Positions 1 to 13,048 of a DNA stretch of 64,000 bases are shown here, in pieces (within the stretch, counting starts at the first letter, position 1; every line of letters begins with the position of its first letter). The notes beneath the pieces are model-generated. The model worked only from the letters and a program-made list of their open reading frames with translations, was not told the origin of the DNA and did no database searches. Source of the stretch: Luteibacter aegosomaticola (GTDB lineage Bacteria; Pseudomonadota; Gammaproteobacteria; Xanthomonadales; Rhodanobacteraceae); the NCBI RefSeq assembly GCF_023078475.1, contig NZ_CP095741.1:4278001-4342000 (forward strand), read 5' to 3'. The translations under genes and the position numbers were made by a program.

Positions 1-1852
1 CACCGAAGGCAGCTTCGTAGGTCGCCTTACCCTCCATAACTCGAACGAACGCATCATGTGGCCAGGACGACTTTCCCCGCTCCTTCTCGACAACCTCGTA
101 TGGTGGATTCCCAACAATCGCTGAGAATCCTCCGCCCTTCATTACGTCGGAGAATGTGTCCCGGAAATCGAGCGGATTCAGAGCTCTAGCGTCCTCGTCA
201 CCAGGGTCGCTATCGCCCAAATCATCCCAACCGACGAGGCTATTTCCACATACAACATTCTGGCTCAAGTCTGGAAGTAGCTTTATCGCCTTTCCATCAC
301 CAAAGTCCATTGCGAACTGCCTTGCCGAACCCGCACTCTCGTTCTCAAGAAGCTTGAGAAACAGCGAGAGCTGGGACACCTCGACGGCCTGGCGGTCAAT
401 ATCAACACCGTACACGCACTTTGTGAGGATATCCCGTCGGAGCTTCAGTCCTAGCCGCCACAGGCCATTGTCGTCGCGCACACACCCGTGATTCTTAGCC
501 TTCGCGTCTCTGTCCGCTGCCAAGACAGCATCTTCCTTACCCTCGTTGTACCAACGCTCGAGATAATTTAAGAGAAAGCCGTATACACCCAGTAGAAAGC
601 TGCCAGATCCACAGGCGATGTCGGCAATTTTGAGCGACCAGACATCCTTAGGCTCGCGGCCGTTCACCAGAGGACCGAGCGTCCTCTCGACAATATGGGC
701 TACGATATGCTCCGGGGTGTAGTAAACGCCACCGGCCTTCCTTATCTCGGGCTTTTCGACAACCTTGACACGCTTCTCTGTCGCTGAGATCACCTTGCCA
801 AGAAAGCGCTCGTAGATCGATCCCAGAATATGAATTGGAATGACGTTTAAATCATAGGGCGAATTGAGATGCGAAAGTCGCTCACAGACATCCCCAAACT
901 GATCGGCATCAACTGGAAAGTCTCGACGATCAAGTGAGGGGTGCACCTTGAAAATGATGCCGTTGTAGGTAGCGTCTAGCTGACGACTAGCCTCCAAGAA
1001 ATCTGTCCAAGCATCTTGTCTGCGGCCGAGATCGGCCACACGCAAGTTTGGCTCAATGAGCTTATCCTCGAGAAATCGGAGGAAGACGAGGCGGTCGAGC
1101 GTCTTCTGGGTAATCTCAGTCAAAGTAAGGGAGTTTAGCGACGGATCTGCCCTTTTGAAGACTTTGGCGAGAGTCTCTCGATGCTCCTCCAGCTCTGCCA
1201 GGAAGCTCTCGTCAACCGACATATACGCGCCAGCAAACAGCGCTCGCTGCTTAGCACCGCCTTTGGCTTTCGGCAATGCTTCGACATAGCGGTCAAACGC
1301 CCCAGTCGCCAGCGCTTCGCGAGAAAATATCCAGTAGAACTCTGCGAATCGCTCCTCGTCTCGGAAGTCCGAGAATCGATATGTCTTGATTGCTTGATCC
1401 AAGACAGAGTCAATATTAGGTCGACGGCGGCAGTCGAGGATGAGGATTTGCTCAAAGTCCGTCAAAACGGCAAGGGGAGTTCCAGCGCTCCAGCCGTACC
1501 GAACAGTCTGGAAATGCGCGTCTTTGCTGTTTACAAGATCTATGCTGGGCTTCTTTGCTTCCACGTAGAATCGCACGGTGTTGAAGTCAGGTGCGAGCGA
1601 AAATGAATAGTCCGCCTTCTTCTGAGTCAAGGCGAATGCCACCGTCTTCTCAACCTTAACTTCCTGCTCCCACGGGTTCCGTTGTGACCGATGAAGAACG
1701 TCCCATCCAAGTGCCTCGAAGAACGGGTCAATAAAGTCCTTCCGAACCTCGGCCTCCTGGTAGTTTGGCTGCAAGAACTTATTGATATGCTCTTGAAAGG
1801 AATCAATGAGTTCAACGACACGTTCAAAAGCAAGACCGAGTGAATCGCTCAT
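1..1852 (-). CDS. Type IIG (Eco57I-like) restriction endonuclease/adenine methyltransferase, 3' end outside window
   Basis: A continuous frame from an ATG at 1852 runs off the left edge (617 residues visible). Residues about 75-105 look like a PD-(D/E)xK nuclease: KADYSF then FYVEAKKPS, giving D81, E98 and K100. A helical spacer follows, then an N6-adenine methyltransferase: GGVYYTPEHIV, motif I ADIACGSGSFL near residue 407, VDIDRQAVEVSQLSLFL, and motif IV IVGNPPYE near 580. This order (nuclease, helicase-free spacer, gamma-type MTase) is that of single-chain type IIG enzymes, where one polypeptide both methylates and cuts; the missing C-terminal part would hold the target recognition domain. 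It is A/T-richer than the genes after 6.4 kb and lies beside an ABC-3C operon, so it is probably part of a defence island. The alternative is a methyltransferase-only BREX/DISARM relative, but the N-terminal nuclease motif argues against that. Confidence 0.88.
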   Translation of the reverse strand, partial: MSDSLGLAFERVVELIDSFQEHINKFLQPNYQEAEVRKDFIDPFFEALGWDVLHRSQRNPWEQEVKVEKTVAFALTQKKADYSFSLAPDFNTVRFYVEAKKPSIDLVNSKDAHFQTVRYGWSAGTPLAVLTDFEQILILDCRRRPNIDSVLDQAIKTYRFSDFRDEERFAEFYWIFSREALATGAFDRYVEALPKAKGGAKQRALFAGAYMSVDESFLAELEEHRETLAKVFKRADPSLNSLTLTEITQKTLDRLVFLRFLEDKLIEPNLRVADLGRRQDAWTDFLEASRQLDATYNGIIFKVHPSLDRRDFPVDADQFGDVCERLSHLNSPYDLNVIPIHILGSIYERFLGKVISATEKRVKVVEKPEIRKAGGVYYTPEHIVAHIVERTLGPLVNGREPKDVWSLKIADIACGSGSFLLGVYGFLLNYLERWYNEGKEDAVLAADRDAKAKNHGCVRDDNGLWRLGLKLRRDILTKCVYGVDIDRQAVEVSQLSLFLKLLENESAGSARQFAMDFGDGKAIKLLPDLSQNVVCGNSLVGWDDLGDSDPGDEDARALNPLDFRDTFSDVMKGGGFSAIVGNPPYEVVEKERGKSSWPHDAFVRVMEGKATYEAAFG

Positions 1853-2144
1853 TAGGTATCCTAGAATGGAGTAATCGTCCGCACCCTCGCTCTGCCGCAC
1901 GCTGAAGCGTCATTGATGCCGGTTCTTAGCAATTATCGTATACGCGGATAGGCGCTGTCATTTTTGGTATCAGCCTCACCACGGCGTGCAAGCAATAGCG
2001 CGTGTCCTCTGGTGCCGCGAGGTTCGAACGCTAAATTCCCATCGTGAATCAATCGGCTGCCGAGGCTATATTCCTCTCTGTCGCTCGTCCATCATTTCGC
2101 AGCCTCCATAGCCCGAAGCATCCGGATCGTTTGTTGCCTGAGCT

Positions 2145-2360
2145 CGGCGCCCCCCAAAGGCCGTCGCGCGGGATCTCGCGCTTCAAATCGGCTAAGCACC
2201 GTTCGGTATGATCATGTGCTTCCGACGGGTTCCGAAAGACGAGCATGTCTATTTCGCCTCGCCGGAAGCAGTCATTGAAGCGCTCGATGAAGCCATTCAG
2301 CATCAACTCGATGAAGTCCAGATCGCCCGTTCTTCTGCGCTGCGCCCATTCTGCTAGCGC
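2145..2360 (-). pseudogene. Remnant of IS3-type integrase (OrfB C-terminus)
   Basis: The reverse strand encodes a stretch reading ALAEWAQRRR, LDFIE, NGFIERFN, LVFRNPSEA, IPRDGLWGAP. This follows the C-terminal pattern of IS3/IS481 DDE integrases (DAWA, LDFIxPGKP, NAFIExFN, RPHxxLG), including the third catalytic Glu region (FIERFN). The PGKP part is damaged, no N-terminal half is present and no start or terminal repeats are seen, so it is a dead fragment. In the rest of the 1853-2470 gap I see no gene. The remnant separates the restriction gene from the ABC-3C operon, consistent with an island built by mobile elements. Confidence 0.7.
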
Positions 2361-2470
2361 GACGGCCACACGGCAGCCTGCAGAGGAACAGAAGGTCCAG
2401 CCGGCTACCAGCGCAACTGGAGGCACGTCGCAAGGCAGCTTGTCTCGTACTAGGGACGCGCGGCACCGAC

Positions 2471-4177
2471 CTACAACCGAAAGAGCTTGTCGTCCTGACT
2501 GAGCTGGAGAATCGTATTCTCCTTAAGAAACGTCTCACTGATCCCCGGTAGCTTGTCGCTGATAGCGGCAAGAATTAGTTGCCCCTCTAAGGAATTGGCC
2601 GCCGTCAGGAGTTCAGATAACTGATTACCATGGATAGCCTCTACGCCATCGTGACAAACGAAAGTTGGAAAGTTGATGCCGGCGGCATGTAGAAATTTGA
2701 TGTAGGCGATATCAAAGGCAGCCGTCTGTGAAACCTTCTTGCCAGCGCCGACGTTCGCACCTACTGATGTCAGAGAAAAGACGATCGATCCGTTCTTTGA
2801 CTCATCGAAGGTTAGTAAGTACTGCTCGCCGTATAAGTCTTTCGAAAGAGATGAGAAAAATTTGTTGAATAGCGACACGCGCTGCGTCAGCCTCGCCTTT
2901 CCTTCCTCTATGAACTTCCTGGTTAAACTGATTTTCTCATCAATGTGCTCCAACGAGTTTCGAAGCGACTGAATTGCATGAAGGCTCTCCTCCAGTCGAC
3001 CCACCTGCTTAAGCATTTCATGCAGATCTTCTTGGGCTTCGAGGGCCATCTCGAAAGCCCGTGTTTTGCGCAGAGCAACCACAAAGCTATCCTCCTCTTC
3101 CTGAAGTCTCTCGAGTTCTCGGAGATGGCTCGCGGCGGTTTCTTTCAGCCCGTGCACCTGCAGTTGAAGAAAACGCTCCTTCCGGCCACGCAAATTCACC
3201 ACAAAGTCGGAAAGTTCTTCCCAATCGCGATGAAGCCTTTCGTTGTATTTCCCAGCTTCTGAGTAAATCGATTTGACGGCAACATCGTCAATACCGCTGT
3301 ACTCATGCTTCAGACTCTCAATTGCCGAGCTCACTGAAGCAATCTCAGCCTCAACCTTTGCCAGTCGGCTTCCAGCATCCGAAGCCTTCGCACGGATTTT
3401 AGAAACGGCATTGGCGGCGGCGGTGATCTCGGAAACCTCACCGCGGAGATGGATTGAGGCCTGTGCGTCGTCAATCTTTCGACGCAGGTGCAGCAAGAGC
3501 TGCTCGATCTCACCCTCTTTTCGCTGGCGAGTTGCCCCGAGAAGATCGCGCGCTACAGTGCCACGCCTGATATTCAGGGAGGACCGTTCCTCCAAGACAT
3601 CAACGTCAAAGAATCCGAAGAGAAAGAGGTGCACTGCCTCATAGTCGACCTCCTTGCCGAAGGGCCCAAGGAACTTCAACGTCTTGCTCATCAAACCGGC
3701 CGAAGACCTCACGAACTTCGGTGCCAGTTGGCGCAAGCTGGGCTTTCTCGACTTTGTGCCGAACAGGATGTTTTTTACTTCGTCACGGTATGTGGCAATC
3801 GAATCTTGCAGAACATCGTCGATGCTTAGCACGCCCGTTCCCTTCTTCCCCTTCACCTTGAAAGAACGACAGAACGAATGAACGCCGCGGATTCTGTCGT
3901 AAATCGTCAAGGTGATGACGACTGCTGGAGTTCCATGCAGAAGGTCGAAAACTTCTTGATTAATACTTCCCCTAAACTCAGAATCGCGCCATATTTCGTC
4001 GCCGTCTGCCCCGAGGCAGAAATCGATAAGACGCAGGACCGTTGTCTTACCAACATTGTTGCCACTTTGCTGCCCCCGACCGGTAGGTCCATCGAGGATG
4101 AGATTCAAGCCGTCTTTGAAGGTAATTTCGCGCAACAACTGATTCCCGCGCTCAATGCAGAGCGATACTAGACGCAT
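2471..4177 (-). CDS. ABC-3C system ABC-type ATPase (DUF2326-like)
   Basis: 568 residues. The N-terminus has a RecF/SMC-like ATPase half with Walker A GNNVGKTT (K44) after an ILDGPTG lead. Residues about 230-450 are mostly charged helices predicted to form a coiled coil. The C-terminal half carries the rest of the ATPase fold, with a Walker-B-like FVCHDG (D510) and a final ISDKLP segment. This layout matches DUF2326 ATPases of ABC three-component systems, which comparative genomics predicts to be conflict (anti-invader) systems in which the ATPase senses or remodels nucleoprotein and activates an effector. It is the last gene of a four-gene operon; its ATG overlaps the preceding stop by 10 bases. 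The overall class is fairly sure; the trigger and the role are not known from sequence. Confidence 0.78.
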   Translation of the reverse strand: MRLVSLCIERGNQLLREITFKDGLNLILDGPTGRGQQSGNNVGKTTVLRLIDFCLGADGDEIWRDSEFRGSINQEVFDLLHGTPAVVITLTIYDRIRGVHSFCRSFKVKGKKGTGVLSIDDVLQDSIATYRDEVKNILFGTKSRKPSLRQLAPKFVRSSAGLMSKTLKFLGPFGKEVDYEAVHLFLFGFFDVDVLEERSSLNIRRGTVARDLLGATRQRKEGEIEQLLLHLRRKIDDAQASIHLRGEVSEITAAANAVSKIRAKASDAGSRLAKVEAEIASVSSAIESLKHEYSGIDDVAVKSIYSEAGKYNERLHRDWEELSDFVVNLRGRKERFLQLQVHGLKETAASHLRELERLQEEEDSFVVALRKTRAFEMALEAQEDLHEMLKQVGRLEESLHAIQSLRNSLEHIDEKISLTRKFIEEGKARLTQRVSLFNKFFSSLSKDLYGEQYLLTFDESKNGSIVFSLTSVGANVGAGKKVSQTAAFDIAYIKFLHAAGINFPTFVCHDGVEAIHGNQLSELLTAANSLEGQLILAAISDKLPGISETFLKENTILQLSQDDKLFRL

Positions 4178-4407
4178 TTTTGAATTTCCCCATTCTCATC
4201 AAGCTTCACGGCGTCGATGAGGTAAAGCCACGCCGCCGCAGCGATGGCCTGCGTCGGCGATATCGCGCGCTTAGTGAGCAGACTCATTCGCTCCTGGAGG
4301 CCAAGCAAGTCAAGCTTGCCATCGGCTACGTCACCAAGAGCTTGCAGCGCGACGGCGCCGAGGTAGTAGCCGCAGTTCCATGGACTCTGTTCACGAGGCA
4401 AGAGCAT
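4168..4407 (-). CDS. ABC-3C middle component (MC6-like)
   Basis: 79 residues starting MLLPREQSP and ending with a LYLIDAVKLDENGEI segment. Small winged-helix-like proteins with an N-terminal 'LLP' start, a helical core and a C-terminal 'LfxLGaIxL' strand are the middle components of ABC-3C systems, thought to bridge the ATPase and the effector. It overlaps the upstream gene by 17 bases and the ATPase gene by 10, so the three are translationally coupled. The call rests mainly on this position and on size; sequence similarity to the MC6 family is by recollection of its pattern. Confidence 0.65.
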   Translation of the reverse strand: MLLPREQSPWNCGYYLGAVALQALGDVADGKLDLLGLQERMSLLTKRAISPTQAIAAAAWLYLIDAVKLDENGEIQKCV

Positions 4408-5098
4408 CGTCGGGCCTCTCTAGAACTTCGCATTCAATTACGGCATCGGCAACGATCAACGAGACTGCCAAGTGTGCCGTCTCCTGCATCACAGTCACAC
4501 TGCTCCCACTTGAGAAATCCGCAAGCATTACCTCTACCACCGCCAAAACGAGACTAACGGCGTGAGCTCTAGCAACGGCGTGCGCATCAGCAGGTTTTAA
4601 TTCAAGGAGATCACACAGCTTGTGCAGCTGCTCCATGTATGCCACTGCGGCCCTGCGACGAACCATGCGGCGCGCGTCATCGTTGCGCTGCTCAGCACCG
4701 CTATAGGCTGACTCAAGGACGCTCGAATACTTAGAGTAATCGGTGATGATGTAATGCGCCGATGGGAAGTCGTTGTAAGCGAGCTTCACGCTAACCTCGG
4801 GCGGTAGCGTTCGCATGGGTCCGGTGTTGTATGCAACCAGATCTTCCGAAAACCGGACGACGACGCTAGAAAGGTAAGACGGAAGTTCACGAGCAATCTG
4901 CCGCTCGATCAAAGTGACGCTTTGTGCGCTGATATTGCAGATTGACCCGTAGTTGTCTCCGGCAACGGCAACGCTACTGTTCCCAGCAGAGATGGACACT
5001 TCCTGCTGCGACGGCGAAGCCTTAAGAAGATTGGTCACGGCTGGCAGCAGCGCCGACAAGGCCGAACCGCTTTGACGCTTGCCGTGTTCCTCAGTCAT
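4391..5098 (-). CDS. ABC-3C C-terminal-domain protein with N-terminal Gly/Asn beta motif
   Basis: 235 residues from the ATG at 5098, preferred over an upstream TTG because it forms a 4-base ATGA overlap with the stop of the preceding gene. Residues 38-57 (AGNSSVAVAGDNYGSICNIS) are a short beta-prone motif closely matching one in the neighbouring membrane protein. Residues about 60-160 contain PPEVSVKLAYNDF and IITDYSKYSSVLESAY followed by a basic helix ending in YMEQL, which resembles the C-terminal domain shared by ABC-3C effectors. The last third is helical and hydrophobic in parts. No nuclease or peptidase motif is visible, so the toxic activity may lie in the partner membrane protein. It could alternatively be a regulator without effector function. 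Confidence 0.6.
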   Translation of the reverse strand: MTEEHGKRQSGSALSALLPAVTNLLKASPSQQEVSISAGNSSVAVAGDNYGSICNISAQSVTLIERQIARELPSYLSSVVVRFSEDLVAYNTGPMRTLPPEVSVKLAYNDFPSAHYIITDYSKYSSVLESAYSGAEQRNDDARRMVRRRAAVAYMEQLHKLCDLLELKPADAHAVARAHAVSLVLAVVEVMLADFSSGSSVTVMQETAHLAVSLIVADAVIECEVLERPDDALAS

Positions 5099-5364
5099 TT
5101 TGCAGCCAAGTGCCAAGCGTGCCAGAGGGTAACTGCTATGCCTAATAGTTCCACTCCGACGGCGAAGTAGGTGAGTCGATGCGAACCGTGAGGCAACGGA
5201 GATGGCGTACCGCAGTTTACGTTGGTGATCGATCCGGTGTTTTTCCCGCCGACAGCGACGGAGCCAGTACTCGCTTCAACTTGAACGACCTTAGATTTCG
5301 AGCGGCCGGCAAAGAAAAGAACAATGCCTAATGCCATCAATGTCAGGCCCACATAGAGTTCCAT
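5095..5364 (-). CDS. Two-helix membrane protein of the ABC-3C operon
   Basis: 89 residues. A hydrophobic helix (about 3-20) is followed by RSKSK, a 20-residue beta motif (31-50, ASTGSVAVGGKNTGSITNVN), a short Pro/Gly linker and a second hydrophobic helix (about 66-86). The motif shares 11 of 20 residues with residues 38-57 of the next protein, so the two may assemble through it. First gene of the operon; AGGGG lies 10 bases upstream of the ATG. I recognise no named family. Small two-helix membrane proteins are common effectors in abortive-infection systems, so a membrane-disrupting role is a reasonable inference, not a demonstrated one. Confidence 0.6.
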   Translation of the reverse strand: MELYVGLTLMALGIVLFFAGRSKSKVVQVEASTGSVAVGGKNTGSITNVNCGTPSPLPHGSHRLTYFAVGVELLGIAVTLWHAWHLAAK

Positions 5365-6032
5365 CTGATTTTTCCCCTGAAATTATTAGTTCAACCGCCA
5401 ATAGCGCATTGAAGCCGATCCGACATCCGAAGAGATTCCTTGTCGCGACTCTACGATGAGGGACGATGGAATCGCGCACTCTGAACGGCTTCGAAAGTTA
5501 CAATTGCGGCATTGCAGTCAACATCAGTAACGCCATCCAACTCTACCGTCATTCGGCGGCGCTGCCGAATTCACGATAAGCGGCGAGGTTTCAACTGCGC
5601 CGAAGATACTGCGCCGACCGACCTGCGCCCGAATAAAAACGCGCATCAGATTTGCTCTTGAAGTATGAGGCCACGAGGTAGAGAGGCGAGCGTCTTTAAG
5701 AGAGTTGGCACGCAGATTTGCCGAAAAAGCCTCCTCGGTGCTAGCCGCTTGTCAGGCTTAGGGCGCCAGTCAACCACTTCCGGTACGGCACCAGGATCGC
5801 TGATCGGAGGCCGGGCAGAAACGGCCCATTGGGATGCTGCGCGCGCTAATCCTGAGGGTGACCACCTTGTTTGACTCGAGGGCCATCGCCCCCCCCTAGC
5901 CAGGCCGAGGCCGTTCTACCCCAAAGCGCGTCAGACTTGTTAGCAACGGAGCTGACGTTGCCGTCGTTGTGATCACCGTCTTAACCGACTGCCAGCGAGC
6001 GCACAACGTCCGCTTCTCTACGTCGTAAGGCG
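5365..6032. other. Gap with no recognisable gene, 5' of the defence operon
   Basis: No open frame here has a convincing start, codon use or family pattern, and no REP palindrome occurs. The stretch must hold the promoter of the four-gene operon that starts at 5364, but I could not assign -35/-10 boxes with confidence. It is probably decayed DNA at the island edge, since a broken gene copy follows directly. Confidence 0.5.
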
Positions 6033-6978: not shown

Positions 6979-7752
6979 TCACCCGCACTTCGAATACCCA
7001 CAATTCAAACAAGTCTGGCACCCATCCATCAGCACCAGCGCCTGCGTATTGCACTTGGCGCAAAGCGTAGCGCCAGCCGGGAAGCCAGCGGCATTGGTGT
7101 GGGAGTCGGCGGCCGGGGCCTCGGGGCTAACGGCGTCGCTCACAGGGTGAGCTCCTACGGGAGCAGCAGCGGGCTTCGCCGCAGCCTTCTCATAAGCAGC
7201 GCGCTTTTCAGCGATCAGCCGCTTGGTCGACTCGTCCATTTCCGGATCGTGGATCAGGCCAATGGACTTCATGTGCTGCTCGATGACGGCACCAATCTCG
7301 GCCACGATGCTGGGCATGTACACGCCGCCCGCCTTGAAGTAGCCGCCACGCGGGTCGAAGACAGCCTTGAGCTCTTCGACGATGAACGTCACGTCGCCAC
7401 CCTTGCGGAAGACGGCGGACAGGATTCGGGTGAGCGCCACGATCCACTGGAAGTGGTCCATGTTCTTCGAGTTGATGAAAAGCTCGAAGGGACGGCGCTG
7501 CTCATGCGGGGTACCCGCATTGAGGACGATATCGTTGATGGTCACGTACAGCGCGTGCTCGAAGAGCGGCGACTTGATCTTGTACGTGTTGCCCACCAGG
7601 GTTTCCGGACGCTCGAGGCTCTCGTGCATCTGGATGACTTCGGCGACGGGTGCGACCTCTTTGACCGGCGCGGCTGCGACGGCTGCGGGTGCTTTGTCCT
7701 CGGGCTTTACGACGTTATAGCCCTTGATCTTCTTCTCGATCTTGATCGCCAT
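6979..7752 (-). CDS. NrdJb-like TSCPD and zinc-ribbon protein of class II ribonucleotide reductase
   Basis: 257 residues. Residues about 45-165 form a TSCPD domain (VGNTYKIKSPLFEHALYVTI, PFELFINSKN, GGDVTFIVEEL), and the C-terminus is a zinc ribbon CAKCN..CQTCLNCGYSKC. In split class II ribonucleotide reductases this is the second chain (NrdJb), which works with the catalytic NrdJa chain encoded upstream. The linker around 198-206 reads PVGAHPVSD, encoded by a single reversed REP palindrome (7135-7158), so part of this protein derives from a repeat element. It is the last gene of nrdJ, lysine-rich protein, nrdJb, and ends before a hairpin terminator. A decayed partial copy lies at 6033-6263. 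Confidence 0.85.
   Translation of the reverse strand: MAIKIEKKIKGYNVVKPEDKAPAAVAAAPVKEVAPVAEVIQMHESLERPETLVGNTYKIKSPLFEHALYVTINDIVLNAGTPHEQRRPFELFINSKNMDHFQWIVALTRILSAVFRKGGDVTFIVEELKAVFDPRGGYFKAGGVYMPSIVAEIGAVIEQHMKSIGLIHDPEMDESTKRLIAEKRAAYEKAAAKPAAAPVGAHPVSDAVSPEAPAADSHTNAAGFPAGATLCAKCNTQALVLMDGCQTCLNCGYSKCG
7135..7158 (-). repeat. Single REP (family A) inside the nrdJb-like gene
   Basis: Read on the minus strand it is GTAGGAGCTCACCCTGTGAGCGAC. It differs from the usual family A palindrome by one compensated pair (GCTCAC/GTGAGC), so the hairpin is kept. It encodes VGAHPVSD in the open frame. Confidence 0.85.
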
Positions 7753-7815
7753 GGTGTTTCTCTCTAACAGGTGGATATCCGGCCCGGCGCGAACGCCGGG
7801 CCGGATGGGTACTAC

Positions 7816-9075
7816 TTACTTACGACGGCCACGGACGGCGCTCTTACGCGCCGGCGTACGGCCGGTCTTGCTGGCAGTGGACCTCTTGGCCGCCTTGGCG
7901 ACCTTTTTCGGAGCAGCGGCCTTTCGGACCGTCTTTTTCGTAGCCGGGCGGCCGGCGACCTTGCGGGTCACCTTGGCGACGGCCTTCTTTACCGCCTTGC
8001 GGGCGGTCGAAGCCTTCTTGACGACGCGGGCAGCGGCCTTCTTGGCGGCCTTCTTCACCACGGCGCCCTTGCGAGCAACCTTCTTGACGACCACAGCAGC
8101 CTTGCGGCCAGCGGTCTTCTTCACGACGGCTGCCTTCTTGGCGACCTTGCGGGCCACCTTCTTGATGGCGACCTTCTTAGCCGGTGCCTTCTTGGCGGCG
8201 GCCTTCTTCGGTGCTGCCTTCTTGACCGCGACCTTCTTGACGGCCTTGACCGCCTTCTTGGCGACGGCCTTCTTCACGGCAACCTTCTTCGGGGCGGCCT
8301 TCTTGGCGACAGCCTTCTTGGCGACAGCCTTCTTGGCGACAGCCTTCTTGACGGCGGCCTTCTTCACCGCGGTCTTCTTGGCAGCTGCCTTCTTCGGCGC
8401 AGCCTTCTTCACCGCGGCCTTCTTCGGAGCGGCAGCCTTCTTGGCAGCGGCCTTCTTCGGAGCAGCGGCCTTCTTGGCAGCTGCCTTCTTCGGGGCGGCC
8501 TTCTTTGCTGCCTTCTTGGCCGGAGCCGGCTCGGCTACGACGGCGGCGGCTGCCTTCTTTGCCGGGGCCTTCTTGGCGGCTGCCTTTTTCGGGGCGGCTT
8601 TTTTCTTGGTGGGTTTGCGCGAGGAGATGTCGCCCACAGGGTGGGCTCCTACAACGGCGGCGGTCTGGTCATCAGCCTGGTGGGCTGCGATTTCGTCGCC
8701 GGCGATGTCCTTCTGGCTGGTGAGCGGCTTCGGGGCCTTCGGCTTGCGCGGGGCCTTCGGCTTCACAGCCTTGACGACCGGGGCGTCGAGCTCGGCAACG
8801 TAGTCCGGCTCGCTGGACGAGACGGCGTCGGTGGCTTCGCTGGTCGGGGCCGGGGTCGGCTCGATCACTTTCTTGGCGACCGGCTTCTTCTTCACCACCT
8901 TCTTCGCGACGACCGGGGCGTGCTCGGTGGTCGCGGTTTCGGCTTCCGCGACCGGGGCTTCAGCAGCCGGGGTGGTCTCGGTGGTGTCGGTGGTTTCCGT
9001 CGCCGTATCGGTCGATTCGGTGGTCTCGCCGTTCGGCAGTTCCGCCTCGTCGATCTGGTTTTCGTCGTTCGTCAT
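7816..9075 (-). CDS. Ala/Lys-rich histone H1-like (AlgP-like) protein
   Basis: 419 residues. The first 60 residues are acidic and Thr/Glu-rich, and a middle linker is Pro/Ala/Val-rich. From about residue 150 to the end are dozens of KKAAxKK-type pentapeptide repeats ending RTPARKSAVRGRRK. The basic tail resembles bacterial H1-like and AlgP proteins, which bind DNA non-specifically and can affect chromatin or transcription. A single REP (8629-8652) lies in frame and encodes [10 protein letters not shown]. The gene starts 24 bases after the nrdJ stop and ends 63 bases before the nrdJb-like start, so it is probably co-transcribed with ribonucleotide reductase. Length is likely to vary between strains because the DNA repeats themselves are near-identical. 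Confidence 0.8.
   Translation of the reverse strand: MTNDENQIDEAELPNGETTESTDTATETTDTTETTPAAEAPVAEAETATTEHAPVVAKKVVKKKPVAKKVIEPTPAPTSEATDAVSSSEPDYVAELDAPVVKAVKPKAPRKPKAPKPLTSQKDIAGDEIAAHQADDQTAAVVGAHPVGDISSRKPTKKKAAPKKAAAKKAPAKKAAAAVVAEPAPAKKAAKKAAPKKAAAKKAAAPKKAAAKKAAAPKKAAVKKAAPKKAAAKKTAVKKAAVKKAVAKKAVAKKAVAKKAAPKKVAVKKAVAKKAVKAVKKVAVKKAAPKKAAAKKAPAKKVAIKKVARKVAKKAAVVKKTAGRKAAVVVKKVARKGAVVKKAAKKAAARVVKKASTARKAVKKAVAKVTRKVAGRPATKKTVRKAAAPKKVAKAAKRSTASKTGRTPARKSAVRGRRK
8629..8652 (-). repeat. Single REP (family A) inside the lysine-rich protein gene
   Basis: A perfect family A palindrome (GTAGGAGCCCACCCTGTGGGCGAC on the minus strand) in the open frame, contributing the peptide VGAHPVGD. No second arm is present. 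Confidence 0.9.
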
Positions 9076-9099
9076 AACTTTTTTCCCTCTCCGCGGGGG

Positions 9100-11244
9100 T
9101 CAGAACTTGCCGTAGTAACCTTCTTTCAGGGCGTCGAAGAGATTGGCGGCGGTGTGCATTTCACCGTCATATTCCACCTCATCATTACCCTTCAACTCGA
9201 CAACGCTACCGTCTTCTAATTCGAAGCGGTAGAGGGTGTTCTCCAAGTCGGTCTCTTTTACAAGCACGCCCTGGAACGCGGCGGGGTTGAATCGGAACGT
9301 CGTGCAGCCTTTAAGGCCTTGCTTATAGGCGTAGAAATAGATGTCCTTGAAGTCCTCGTACGGGTAATCCGTGGGGACGTTCGCGGTCTTCGAAATCGAG
9401 CTGTCGATCCACTTCTGCGAGGCAGCCTGGATATCGACGTGCTCTTTCGGGCTGATGTCGTCGGCGGCCACGAAGTATTCCGGCAGGCGGGTCTTCGGGT
9501 CTTCGGAGTACGGCATGGCCTCGCCATTGATCAGGGCGCGGTAGGCCAGCAGCTCGTAGCTGTAGACCTCGACCTTTTCCTTCGACTTCTTGCCCTCGCG
9601 GATGACATTGCGCGAGTAATGGTGGGCGAAGCTCGGCTCAATGCCGTTCGAGGCGTTGTTGGCCAGGCTCAGGCTGATGGTGCCGGTGGGGGCGATCGAC
9701 GAGTGGTGGGTGAAGCGGGCGCCCACCTTGGCCAGCTCGGCGACGAGCTCCGGAGCCACCGTGGCCACGCGCTGCATGTAGCGCGAGTACTTGGCGTGCA
9801 GCTCGGAACCCTTGATCTGCTGGCCGACCTTCCAGCCGTCTTTCACCATCTCCGGGCGCTTGCGCAGCATGTCGCCGGTGACTTCGAAGCTCTGGGCCAG
9901 CACCGGGGCCGGGCCCTTTTCCTTCGCCAGTTCCAGGGCGACTTCCCAGCCGGCCACGGCCATGTCGCGGCTCACTTCTTCGGTGAACTGCACGGCGTCG
10001 GCGGCGCCGTAGCGCATCTTCAGCATGGTGAGCGTGCTGCCCAGGCCCAGGAAGCCCATGCCGTGGCGGCGCTTGCTCAGGATCTCGTGCTGCTGCTGCG
10101 GGAGCGGCAGGCCGTTGATTTCCACCACGTTATCGAGCATGCGGGTGAACACGCGGACGACTTCGCGGTATTCCTCCCAATCGAAACGGGCCTTCGGGCC
10201 GAACGGGTCGCGCACGAACACGGTGAGGTTCACCGAGCCCAGCAGGCAGGAGCCGTACGGCGGCAGCGGCTGCTCGCCGCAGGGGTTGGTCGCGCGGATG
10301 TGCTCGCACCACCAGTTGTTGTTCATCTCGTTGACGCGGTCGATCAGGATGAAGCCCGGCTCGGCGTAGTCATACGTCGAGACCATGATCATGTCCCACA
10401 GGTGGCGGGCGCGGATGTGGCCGTAGATCTTGCAGGCCACCAGGCCGTCGTCACGGGTGACGTACTGGTCCTTGGTCGGCCACTCACGCCAGACGACCTT
10501 GGTGGCGTCGGTGAGGTCGATCTCGTGCTGTTCCTTGACGTGGACCGGGAAAACGGTCGGCCAGTCCTGGTCGTTCTCCACCGCGTCCATGAAGCCGTCG
10601 GTGATGAGCAGCGAGAGGTTGAACTGGCGCAGGCGGCCATCTTCGCGCTTGGCGCGGATGAATTCCTTGGCGTCCGGGTGGCTCACGTCGAACGTGCCCA
10701 TCTGCGCACCGCGGCGGCCGCCGGCGGAGGAGACGGTGAAGCACATCTTGTCGTAGATATCCATGAACGACAGCGGGCCCGAGGTATGGGCGCCAGCACC
10801 GCTCACGTACGCGCCGCGCGGGCGCAGCGTGCTGAATTCGTAGCCGATGCCGCAGCCTGCCTTCAGGGTGAGGCCGGCTTCGTGGACCTTCTCCAGGATG
10901 TCATCCATCGAATCGTGGATGGTGCCCGAGACGGTGCAGTTGATCGTGGAGGTGGCGGGCTTGTGCTCCAGCGCGCCAGCGTTGGAGGTGATGCGGCCAG
11001 CGGGGATCGCACCGCGGCGCAGGGCCCACAGGAAGCGCTCGAACCAGTGGGCGCGCAGCTCCTCGGTGGCTTCCACATCGGAGAGCGCACGGGCGACGCG
11101 CTGGTAGGTCTCGTCCACCGAGCCATCGACGGGCGCACCCGACTTGGCCTTCAGGCGGTACTTCTTGTCCCAGATGTCGAAGGAAGCCGGCTGCAGCGGA
11201 ATGGCCGAATCAAGGCCAAGGGCCTGGGCGCGTGCGGTGCTCAT
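9100..11244 (-). CDS. nrdJ: Adenosylcobalamin-dependent (class II) ribonucleoside-diphosphate reductase catalytic chain NrdJa
   Basis: 714 residues from the ATG at 11244 (MSTARAQALGLD), chosen over an upstream frame start because homologues begin here. It makes deoxyribonucleotides using coenzyme B12, with or without oxygen. Visible family motifs are the N-terminal IPLQPASFDIWDKKYRLK, RRGAIPAGRI, the active-site region SAGGRRGAQMGTF, NCTVSGTIHDS, and the substrate-loop ATNPCGEQPLPPYGSC. It lacks the C-terminal zinc ribbon, which is supplied by the NrdJb-like protein two genes on. An NrdR-like box lies about 207 bases upstream, suggesting control by the RNR repressor. Confidence 0.95.
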   Translation of the reverse strand: MSTARAQALGLDSAIPLQPASFDIWDKKYRLKAKSGAPVDGSVDETYQRVARALSDVEATEELRAHWFERFLWALRRGAIPAGRITSNAGALEHKPATSTINCTVSGTIHDSMDDILEKVHEAGLTLKAGCGIGYEFSTLRPRGAYVSGAGAHTSGPLSFMDIYDKMCFTVSSAGGRRGAQMGTFDVSHPDAKEFIRAKREDGRLRQFNLSLLITDGFMDAVENDQDWPTVFPVHVKEQHEIDLTDATKVVWREWPTKDQYVTRDDGLVACKIYGHIRARHLWDMIMVSTYDYAEPGFILIDRVNEMNNNWWCEHIRATNPCGEQPLPPYGSCLLGSVNLTVFVRDPFGPKARFDWEEYREVVRVFTRMLDNVVEINGLPLPQQQHEILSKRRHGMGFLGLGSTLTMLKMRYGAADAVQFTEEVSRDMAVAGWEVALELAKEKGPAPVLAQSFEVTGDMLRKRPEMVKDGWKVGQQIKGSELHAKYSRYMQRVATVAPELVAELAKVGARFTHHSSIAPTGTISLSLANNASNGIEPSFAHHYSRNVIREGKKSKEKVEVYSYELLAYRALINGEAMPYSEDPKTRLPEYFVAADDISPKEHVDIQAASQKWIDSSISKTANVPTDYPYEDFKDIYFYAYKQGLKGCTTFRFNPAAFQGVLVKETDLENTLYRFELEDGSVVELKGNDEVEYDGEMHTAANLFDALKEGYYGKF

Positions 11245-11450
11245 GTATGTGTCGTCCTCAAGTACTCGGCCTGTGTCGGCCGTTCTTATTGGTATGCGTG
11301 GGCGCAACCTGTCGAGACCCTCCCCCCGGAGGAAATCAACCATCCTTTACCACCCCTGTTGGCGCCGGCGAAAAGCCTTTGCCGACGCTGGGTTGAAGCT
11401 TGAACCTGAGTCTCCGCAGCACCAGCACTTGGTAACTATCGAACGAAGGA

Positions 11451-11466
11451 ACACAAGATGTTGTGG
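11451..11466. promoter_or_regulatory. NrdR-like box upstream of nrdJ
   Basis: ACACAAGATGTTGTGG agrees with the NrdR consensus acaCwAtATaTwGtgt at 13 of 16 positions and keeps the CACAA/TTGTG symmetry. Only one such box was seen; NrdR sites usually come as a pair about three helical turns apart. The rest of 11245-11581 shows no gene; I looked for a cobalamin riboswitch and did not find its B12 box. Confidence 0.5.
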
Positions 11467-11581
11467 TTGCGGCCGGGGTTGAACCTTACGCTCGGAGGGG
11501 GCCGATGTAAAGTGTCGGATACATGCGTCTCATGGTCTGAAACCGATCGTTTTTCGTGTGGTCTTAGGGCGATGGAAGAGC

Positions 11582-11656
11582 ATCGCGCGCGAGCGCGCTC
11601 CTACAGGAGGGTGAGGAATCCCCCCACGCTGTTGTAGGAGCGCGTTTACGCGCGAT
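11582..11656. repeat. REP family B, outward-facing pair
   Basis: A reversed copy at 11582-11604 (ATCGCGCGCGAGCGCGCTCCTAC) and a forward copy at 11634-11656 (GTAGGAGCGCGTTTACGCGCGAT). Family B shares the GTAGGAGC head with family A but has a GCGCGC palindrome. The pair sits 36 bases before the degQ-like start. Confidence 0.85.
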
Positions 11657-11692
11657 CCCCCTCACCACAACACCCAGCCAAGGAGCTCCACG

Positions 11693-13048
11693 ATGCCCGC
11701 ACGCCCCACCCCGCGGACCCTGATCGCCGTTATCGCCATGGCCCTGGCGACCCCGGCCTTCGCCGCCATCCCGCCCGCCGTCGACGGCCAGCCCGTCCCT
11801 TCCCTCGCGCCGATGCTCGCGAAGGTGACGCCCGCGGTGGTGAACATTTCCACGAAGACGCGCATCCGCACCCAGGGCGCTTACTTCAACGATCCGCTGT
11901 TCGCCCAACTCTTCGGCCAGGGCATTCCGCGTGAGCGGGTGGAACAGAGCCTGGGCTCCGGCGTGGTGGTGGATGCGGCGAAGGGCTACATCCTGACGAA
12001 CAACCATGTGGTGGGTGGTTCGGACGACATCACCGTGACCCTGCAGGATGGCCGCGACTTCAAGGCCAAGCTGATCGGCACCGATCCGGATACCGATGTG
12101 GCGGTGCTGCAGATCCCCGCCGAGCGACTGCAGGCGCTGCCCGTGGCCGATTCCGCGCAGCTGCGTGTCGGCGATTTCGTGGTGGCGGTCGGCGATCCGT
12201 TCGGCCTGGGCCAGACGGCGACCTCGGGCATGGTGTCGGCGTTGAACCGCACGGGCCTGGGCAAGGGCATCCAGAACTTCATCCAGACCGATGCGTCGAT
12301 CAACCCCGGTAACTCCGGTGGCGCGCTGGTGAACCTACGCGGTGAGCTGGTCGGTATCAATTCGATGATCTTCACGCCCTCGGGCGGCAACGTGGGTATC
12401 GGCTTCGCGATCCCCACCGACCTGGCCACCGGCGTGATGAAGCAGCTGCTCGCCTACGGCAAGGTCCGCCGCGGCAACCTGGGCGTGGAGGTGCAGGACA
12501 TCACGCCGCGCATCGCCTCGGCGCTGGGCCTGAAGGACACGCAGGGCGCGGTGGTCACTGGCGTCACCGCAGGCTCGCCGGCGGATGGCGCGGGCCTGCA
12601 GACGGGCGATGTGCTGACAGCGATCGACGGCAAGCCCGTGCGCTCGGCGCAGGAGGTGCGTAATACCGAAGGCCTGCTGCCGGTGGGCTCGTCGGTAAAG
12701 CTCAGCGTGCAGCGTGAGGGTAAGCCGCGTGATGTCACCGCTTCGATCGAAGCGGCGAAGCTGGCGACGGTGGAAGGTGGCAAGGTGGATAAGCGCCTGT
12801 CGGGCGTGGTGCTCACCGACCTCACCCCGGAACAGAAGCAGGCCGGGCTGTATGGCGTGGCGTTGAGCAACGTGCAGCCAGGCTCGGCGGCGTACCAGGC
12901 AGGCCTGCGCGATGGCGACGTGGTCGCCGCGATCGGCCAGCGCCGCGTCCCCGGCGTGAAGGGCCTGCCAACCACCGGCACACTAGGCGGCCGCCAGCTG
13001 CTGCTCACAGTAGTCCGCGACGACGCGGTGTACTACGCGGTCCTGTAG
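11693..13048 (+). CDS. degQ: DegQ/HtrA-type periplasmic serine protease
   Basis: 451 residues. A signal peptide (1-25, ending AFAA) is followed by a trypsin-like domain with catalytic H105 (TNNHVV), D135 (DTDVAVLQ) and S208 (NPGNSGGALV), then two PDZ domains (about 255-345 and 365-445). Such proteases degrade or refold misfolded envelope proteins. Length fits DegQ/DegP. AGGAG lies shortly before the ATG. The stop codon TAG is part of the GTAG head of the REP pair starting at 13045, so the repeat has defined the end of the protein. DegP and DegQ cannot be told apart firmly here. Confidence 0.88.
   Translation: MPARPTPRTLIAVIAMALATPAFAAIPPAVDGQPVPSLAPMLAKVTPAVVNISTKTRIRTQGAYFNDPLFAQLFGQGIPRERVEQSLGSGVVVDAAKGYILTNNHVVGGSDDITVTLQDGRDFKAKLIGTDPDTDVAVLQIPAERLQALPVADSAQLRVGDFVVAVGDPFGLGQTATSGMVSALNRTGLGKGIQNFIQTDASINPGNSGGALVNLRGELVGINSMIFTPSGGNVGIGFAIPTDLATGVMKQLLAYGKVRRGNLGVEVQDITPRIASALGLKDTQGAVVTGVTAGSPADGAGLQTGDVLTAIDGKPVRSAQEVRNTEGLLPVGSSVKLSVQREGKPRDVTASIEAAKLATVEGGKVDKRLSGVVLTDLTPEQKQAGLYGVALSNVQPGSAAYQAGLRDGDVVAAIGQRRVPGVKGLPTTGTLGGRQLLLTVVRDDAVYYAVL

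Follow-up and report, generated by a model that had tools for sequence, protein, structure and literature searches.

How might a Lamassu-type defence system act when its LmuA-type subunit has no recognised enzyme domain? The question is raised by a four-gene operon at positions 2471 to 5364 of a 64,000-nucleotide stretch of the Luteibacter aegosomaticola genome (contig NZ_CP095741.1, positions 4,278,001 to 4,342,000), referred to below as the window. The operon is an ABC three-component (ABC-3C) locus of the Lamassu superfamily, and a short motif is common to its first two products, a membrane protein and a protein with an ABC-3C-like C-terminal domain (CTD); this motif, the key feature of the locus, was overlooked in the initial annotation. 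In the best reading of the comparisons below, homotypic signalling would have taken the place of the enzyme in the LmuA-type subunit, with a membrane effector at the receiving end; it would resemble that of RIP homotypic interaction motifs (RHIM) and bacterial amyloid signalling sequences (BASS). That the operon encodes a Lamassu/ABC-3C defence module with its effector acting in trans, through a homotypic motif in the membrane protein, seems to us reasonably probable.

A motif common to adjacent genes

All four open reading frames (ORFs) were confirmed on the minus strand; the gene for the membrane protein leads, followed by those for the CTD protein, middle component 6 (MC6) and the ABC ATPase. 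As initially annotated, they run in one direction and overlap, by 4 bases between genes 1 and 2 (5095-5098), 17 between genes 2 and 3 (4391-4407) and 10 between genes 3 and 4 (4168-4177). Gene 2 gives 235 residues from the ATG at 5098 and 241 from an upstream TTG. The features are as follows, with the evidence in brackets.

5095..5364, minus strand: gene 1, 89-residue membrane protein with the motif in the loop joining helices 2-22 and 62-88 (AlphaFold2, hydropathy, homologues)
5215..5286, minus strand: motif copy A, VQVEASTGSVAVGGKNTGSITNVN, gene 1 residues 27-50, predicted to be cytosolic (alignment to copy B, blastp, Lys+Arg bias)
4391..5098, minus strand: gene 2, 235-residue CTD protein, an LmuA-type subunit without a recognised enzyme domain (Pfam, relatives, model)
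4928..4999, minus strand: motif copy B, VSISAGNSSVAVAGDNYGSICNIS, gene 2 residues 34-57, in a low-confidence N-terminal tail (alignment, blastp, AlphaFold2)
4394..4888, minus strand: LmuA/YydB-like helical C-terminal domain, gene 2 residues 71-235, a CTD10 relative
4168..4407, minus strand: gene 3, MC6, 79 residues (PF20293 at residues 3-78)
2471..4177, minus strand: gene 4, SMC/Rad50-like ABC ATPase with a C-terminal DUF2326, 568 residues (PF10088, PADLOC)

The motif reads VQVEASTGSVAVGGKNTGSITNV in the membrane protein and VSISAGNSSVAVAGDNYGSICNI in the N-terminus of the CTD protein; it contains V-A-V-G-G-K-N. Copies A and B align without gaps at 12 identities, with a local alignment score of 59 for the pair (z = 8.2 over shuffled tails; blastp E = 4e-5). 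When the window's own genome was searched with the 89-residue protein, the query found itself, the motif of the CTD protein (E = 0.16) and three further weak matches, with E between 0.10 and 1.4.

Relatives were drawn from plasmids, species genomes and IMG/VR contigs, and the genes ahead of each ABC gene were read off in turn; the loci are numbered with an L. They yielded 25 loci, the window included, in which a small gene lies directly upstream of the CTD gene, and in most of them a Gly/Asn-rich stretch recurs in the upstream protein and at the N-terminus of the CTD protein. Four-gene loci like that of the window occur, for example, in Hydrogenophaga (L041), in Marinobacterium (L047) and on a Lacticaseibacillus paracasei plasmid (L009). 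Pairing was scored by Smith-Waterman alignment, with each upstream protein set against residues 1-70 of each CTD protein. The true neighbours reached a summed score of 1325 over 25 pairs, versus a permuted mean of 687.5 (standard deviation 45.2, maximum 952), with none of 200,000 permutations as high. When each close group was reduced to a single locus, leaving 20 pairs, the score was 1107 versus a permuted mean of 560.8 and maximum of 799; a first run on 14 pairs had given 708 versus 397 permuted. The own partner ranked top in 16 of 25 rows and, in the reduced set, in 17 of 20; there the window pair came first in both directions. By these alignments, motif pairing is specific to the own locus over the 25 loci.

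Might such similarity simply reflect a low-complexity Gly/Asn/Ser linker or the remnant of a gene duplication? The motifs are indeed rich in G, N, S, V and I, and a few pairs cannot be told from shuffles: L036, L060, L049, L077, L007 and L117 lie above p = 0.01, and in the first three the upstream/CTD alignment is no better than chance. The other 19 of 25 pairs beat composition-preserving shuffles at p < 0.01 (median z over all pairs 6.3), so that the pairing reflects residue order and not composition, and the cis specificity seen in the permutations also speaks against this explanation. Codons are identical at 107 of 258 identical residues, where codon usage alone predicts 120.4; since this agreement is no higher than expected, the likeness is one maintained in the proteins and does not stem from recent DNA duplication. 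We regard the linker or duplication explanation as highly improbable.

Between loci the motifs differ strongly, from KLISKGNNNLQQVGGKNSNG / KLSAKGDSNVQQVGTTNING in L009 and ATGKVATNVVGSNNS / AIGKVATNITGDSNS in L008 to NLNPAATTV / NLNPAATTV in L073 and NNKGVIGGSISGGV / NNKGIIAGKIEGDV in L109, and signalling specificity could be probed with this natural variation. The RHIM core has been given as G-(I,V)-Q-(I,V)-G (PMC7885112) and is only approached in these motifs. A RHIM-like Q-[VM]-G-x-x-N was found, by eye, in the membrane partners of L009 and L085 only, and Pfam detected no RHIM in the 22 upstream proteins scanned of the 25.

Component identities and the exchange with fused domains

The ABC protein matches DUF2326 (PF10088) at E = 2.4e-15 (56.9 bits, cut-off 28.7) and the PADLOC models PDC-M68B (5.6e-29) and LmuB (1.2e-13), which bears out the initial annotation of an ABC-3C operon with a DUF2326-like ATPase. 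The small middle component proposed there also holds: the 79-residue protein, encoded between the CTD and ABC genes, matches MC6 (PF20293) over its full length at E = 6.5e-6, with 26.5 bits, 0.7 below the curated cut-off of 27.2. The ABC-3C-like C-terminal domain annotated in the 235-residue protein required a less direct route, as the CTD10 hidden Markov model gives no proper match (E = 0.11; 13.5 bits versus 28.1). We assign the domain because CTD10 is found at E ≤ 0.1 in 20 of 25 homologous CTD proteins (15 of 19 and 5 of 6 in two sets), because hhalign matches 19 motif-type CTD proteins to 41 CTD10 proteins (99.9%, E = 4.9e-31), and because the modelled C-terminal part has YydD-YydB and LmuA entries as its best fold matches, among them one titled as an LmuA tetramer on DNA. 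A profile of the 19 proteins found no convincing PDB chain by sequence, and the window CTD protein had no match among plasmids. One match to it in genome G190 was set aside as chance, lying inside a long trehalose-synthase-like ORF on the opposite strand.

No enzymatic effector domain was found by Pfam at the N-terminus of the 235-residue protein. AlphaFold2 gives residues 1-70 block means of 43-55 in predicted local confidence (pLDDT), with values below 50 at residues 28-55 and 59-65 of the motif-bearing tail. It is this LmuA-type N-terminus without a recognised enzyme domain that leads us to file the locus as a Lamassu/ABC-3C variant. The description of ABC-3C systems as known only from predictions is outdated: a review counts them within the Lamassu superfamily (PMC10586767) and, going by entry titles, structures of LmuA and LmuACB exist.

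Readable MC6/DUF2326 loci fall into two kinds, 25 motif-type and 41 fused-type. Motif-type CTD proteins are short (178-236 residues, n = 25), with no convincing match to enzyme families. All 41 fused CTD proteins match CTD10, and 32 of them match SMEK_N at E ≤ 0.01; the other nine are HNH-like by eye, and four proteins match HNH_2 and two HNH. Because the 41 proteins, taken as a profile, match a solved structure, the Mrr domain of a prokaryotic Argonaute protein (26bh, 6.7e-20), the SMEK effector domain is probably Mrr-like.

The two kinds also differ upstream. Among ORFs of 35-250 residues ending from 300 bases before to 100 bases after the CTD start, one scoring 45 or more against the CTD tail was present in 18 of 25 motif-type loci versus none of 40 fused-type loci (maximum 32), a threshold picked after the pairing scores were known. 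Six of the 40 had no ORF within these limits, the best ORF of L049 was not its membrane-helix gene, and L046 was left out for want of upstream DNA. Across the loci compared, the small upstream gene thus accompanies the absence of the N-terminal SMEK/HNH-like domain and is not an addition to an ordinary ABC-3C system. The four-part system initially proposed stands as regards a fourth, membrane-protein gene, but that gene is tied to the missing domain.

This distribution bears on whether the upstream protein is an inhibitor or antitoxin that sequesters the CTD protein through the motif until infection. In favour of this role, the operon opens with the gene for this protein, and that gene overlaps the next, for the CTD protein. 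The CTD protein, however, has no recognised enzymatic domain to restrain, and no matching partner was found in the 40 fused-type loci tested, where such a domain is present, so we consider this role very unlikely.

In a tree of 65 ABC proteins (24 motif-type, 41 fused-type; a quick method, long branches flagged), the motif/fused label needs three changes, which the starred branches force. L007 was left out, its ABC frame being broken. Motif loci are spread across deep branches, some beside HNH-like loci, and L073 sits within the SMEK group. By this tree, the motif wiring is old and has been swapped with fused domains more than once. In order-level sampling, no close ABC relatives besides the window genome were found among 398 genomes, two of which gave weak, partial matches. 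The L096 ABC protein as query returned seven plasmid records and no phage record; in IMG/VR, alignment queries gave relatives, and the single window ABC protein gave none.

Before counting, we removed duplicates (L120, with the proteins of L119; L090, equal to L089; L176, equal to L050) and repeated IMG/VR records (L106, L107, L110-L114, and L123-L134 except L132). Loci that were incomplete, broken or unread stayed unclassed (L028, L059, L062, L067, L072, L075, L076, L081, L082, L084, L086, L087, L093 and L121), as did L011 (truncated ABC gene), L010 (insertion sequences), L177 (broken in pieces) and L040 (SMEK-like by eye). Loci with an ABC or middle component of another kind were not counted (e.g., L027, L029-L035, L037-L039 and L182-L196).

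Several loci deserve separate mention. On a Caballeronia plasmid, L010 is a SMEK-CTD/MC6/DUF2326 locus with CTD and ABC genes apparently split by insertion sequences. L182 (reverse strand) combines a short CTD-like protein with a middle component of another sort, and no gene upstream of it matches; it is an exception to the rule. Upstream of the HNH-like CTD locus L118, a helix-turn-helix-like protein (L118:2501-2923) contains a motif-like Gly/Asn-rich stretch, QQANGNSGVIMGNNNSNVNN, which has no match in the CTD protein of that locus. The broken Lactobacillales locus at L177:1706-2533 retains fragments of a membrane helix and of a motif-like Gly/Asn stretch and is probably a decayed motif-type system.

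The membrane partner and its proposed role

The leading 89-residue gene was initially annotated as a two-helix membrane protein, and both the model (helices at residues 2-22 and 62-88) and hydropathy (peaks at 3-19 and 64-80) agree. The AlphaFold2 model has a mean pLDDT of 62, falling below 50 at residues 23-54, the inter-helix loop that holds the motif; no Pfam family matches at its cut-off. Homologues in L041 and L144 are 65-67% identical. These two loci are closely similar window-type operons on different contigs of one Hydrogenophaga metagenome-assembled genome.

The conservation looked for in the initial annotation is borne out in that a gene encoding a membrane helix lies directly upstream of the CTD gene in 24 of 25 motif-type loci. 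Only in the window operon and its two Hydrogenophaga counterparts, however, do two helices flank the motif. Most of the 21 further membrane partners have one helix followed by a C-terminal motif; the L132 partner has two helices ahead of the motif, and in that of L060 a second hydropathy peak falls within an N-terminal extension whose presence hinges on which start is taken. We dropped the two-helix gene as the defining part in favour of the motif-bearing partner. The remaining partner, that of L073, is soluble (169 residues). In this Bacteroidales locus (L073:3383-3892 and 3911-4477) it may represent a different effector on the same wiring. In 23 of 24 membrane partners Lys and Arg are more frequent on the motif side of the helix, from which the motif is predicted to face the cytosol; the exception is L132, with its second hydrophobic segment before the motif.

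Taking as its basis the operon, the identities of its components, the locus-specific pairing, the exchange of motif for fused domain and the predicted cytosolic side of the motif, all read from sequence, we propose the following mechanism. The DUF2326 ATPase (LmuB-like) and MC6 (LmuC-like) would hold the LmuA-like CTD protein and sense foreign DNA, as the family suggests; in Lamassu, the SMC-like subunit is described as sensing DNA, after which the effector is activated (PMC10586767, PMC12904381). In place of the nuclease-like domain of ordinary relatives, the CTD protein would present a flexible tail with the homotypic motif. Activation would cluster these tails and nucleate a cross-beta assembly, a RHIM/BASS-like amyloid, which would capture and convert the matching motif of the gene 1 protein. 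The clustered helices would then permeabilise the inner membrane, leading to abortive infection. The alarm would thus reach the membrane through assembly of motif upon motif, on the pattern of necroptosis or fungal prion signalling. By analogy, we infer complex formation, a DNA trigger and phage defence for the window system; an amyloid would be the most likely state of the motif, and membrane damage by the partner is suggested by its helices.

The main rival to this mechanism is tethering, in which the motif would clamp the two proteins together into a stable heteromer and thereby anchor the DNA-sensing complex at the inner membrane, where phage DNA enters, with neither killing nor amyloid. 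Most partners are indeed one helix with a short tail, and pore-forming families gave no convincing match to the upstream partners, only weak single ones (Saf_2TM 0.028, HlyE 0.036); other systems, moreover, are described as placing sensors at the membrane (PMC12904381). An anchor, however, would leave the CTD protein without an effector, though its SMEK/HNH-like relatives carry one. Two copies of one motif suit homotypic assembly better than a lock-and-key clamp, and the soluble L073 partner anchors nothing. We therefore consider tethering unlikely, and retain homotypic signalling to a membrane effector as the preferred mechanism.

Known systems and genomic setting

With Lamassu/ABC-3C systems (LmuA-LmuC-LmuB; DdmABC), the window operon has in common the order effector-middle-ABC, MC6, the SMC-like ATPase and the LmuA-like C-terminal fold; it differs in that its LmuA-type protein has no recognised enzyme domain but a motif tail in that place, and a fourth gene bears the matching motif. 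The ABC, MC6 and CTD10 families are also those of SMEK/HNH-CTD10 : MC6 : DUF2326 systems, of which a Priestia plasmid locus annotated as ABC-three component is an example. Both kinds fall in one tree, but these systems hold the domain in cis, and a matching upstream ORF was absent from all 40 tested.

The closest parallel in wiring is with BASS signalosomes of NOD-like receptors (NLR) and Bell proteins. According to two publications, these have adjacent or overlapping genes and one short motif at the receptor N-terminus and in a membrane-helix partner, and NLRs are thought to template Bell proteins through BASS motifs (PMC7889193, PMC8086366); two-gene signalosomes follow the same logic with NLR receptors (PMC7889193). 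In the motif-type loci, by contrast, the receptor side is an SMC/ABC complex with a CTD10/LmuA-type protein, the partner is mostly a bare protein of one or two helices, and hosts include ordinary single-celled bacteria. With the RHIM necrosome and the fungal amyloid signalling of HET-s and HELLP, the system would have in common a sensor assembly that templates a membrane-acting executor via a homotypic motif, although an amyloid is here something we infer, and the Q-[VM]-G-x-x-N core is confined to the two partners named above.

We regard a sensor with an in-trans, motif-coupled and mostly membrane-bound partner as a new form of Lamassu/ABC-3C. The literature search returned no paper joining Lamassu with amyloid, its scope being such that the ABC-3C founding paper, the paper on bacterial BASS and the 2025 Lamassu structure paper lay outside it, where a prior mention is possible. 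The titles and abstracts listed for ABC-3C/DUF2326 showed no amyloid link, and broad searches gave nothing on bacterial non-NLR amyloid signalling among the matches listed. A 2021 review asks whether signalling amyloids exist in NLR-independent pathways (PMC7889193); the 25 pairs, several in easily grown bacteria, are concrete candidates bearing on this question. They would join SMC-type DNA-sensing immunity with amyloid cell-death signalling and offer a role for LmuA-type proteins without an enzyme domain. Taken more widely, we give roughly even chances to the proposal that SMC/Rad50-like DNA-sensing systems on deep branches, found in Pseudomonadota, Bacillota, Actinomycetota and Bacteroidota, wire their sensor to a membrane executor via locus-specific amyloid motifs, exchanged with fused nuclease-like effectors, which would extend amyloid signalling beyond NLRs and multicellular bacteria.

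The Bacillus subtilis genome, included as a control, also gives an MC6 signal. Given this match, and since PDB entry 9a6c (YydD-YydB) is the best fold match, the yyd genes of B. subtilis probably form an ABC-3C locus of the SMEK/HNH-CTD10 : MC6 : DUF2326 type.

Next to the operon, the initially annotated type IIG restriction gene (window 1-1900 and beyond; 1012 residues) is confirmed by matches to Eco57I (1e-20) and the PADLOC model REase_MTase_IIG (2e-145). The surrounding stretch (L197:5744-13900), which covers window positions 1-1900 and the genome immediately beyond the window edge, contains, besides this enzyme, an AAA_5 ATPase gene, McrC and an MrcB_N-HNH protein. G+C content is 51-56% over window positions 1-6000 and 60-66% over 7000-12000. 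This shift, together with the type IIG, McrC, AAA_5 and HNH genes, indicates that the neighbourhood is probably an acquired defence island.

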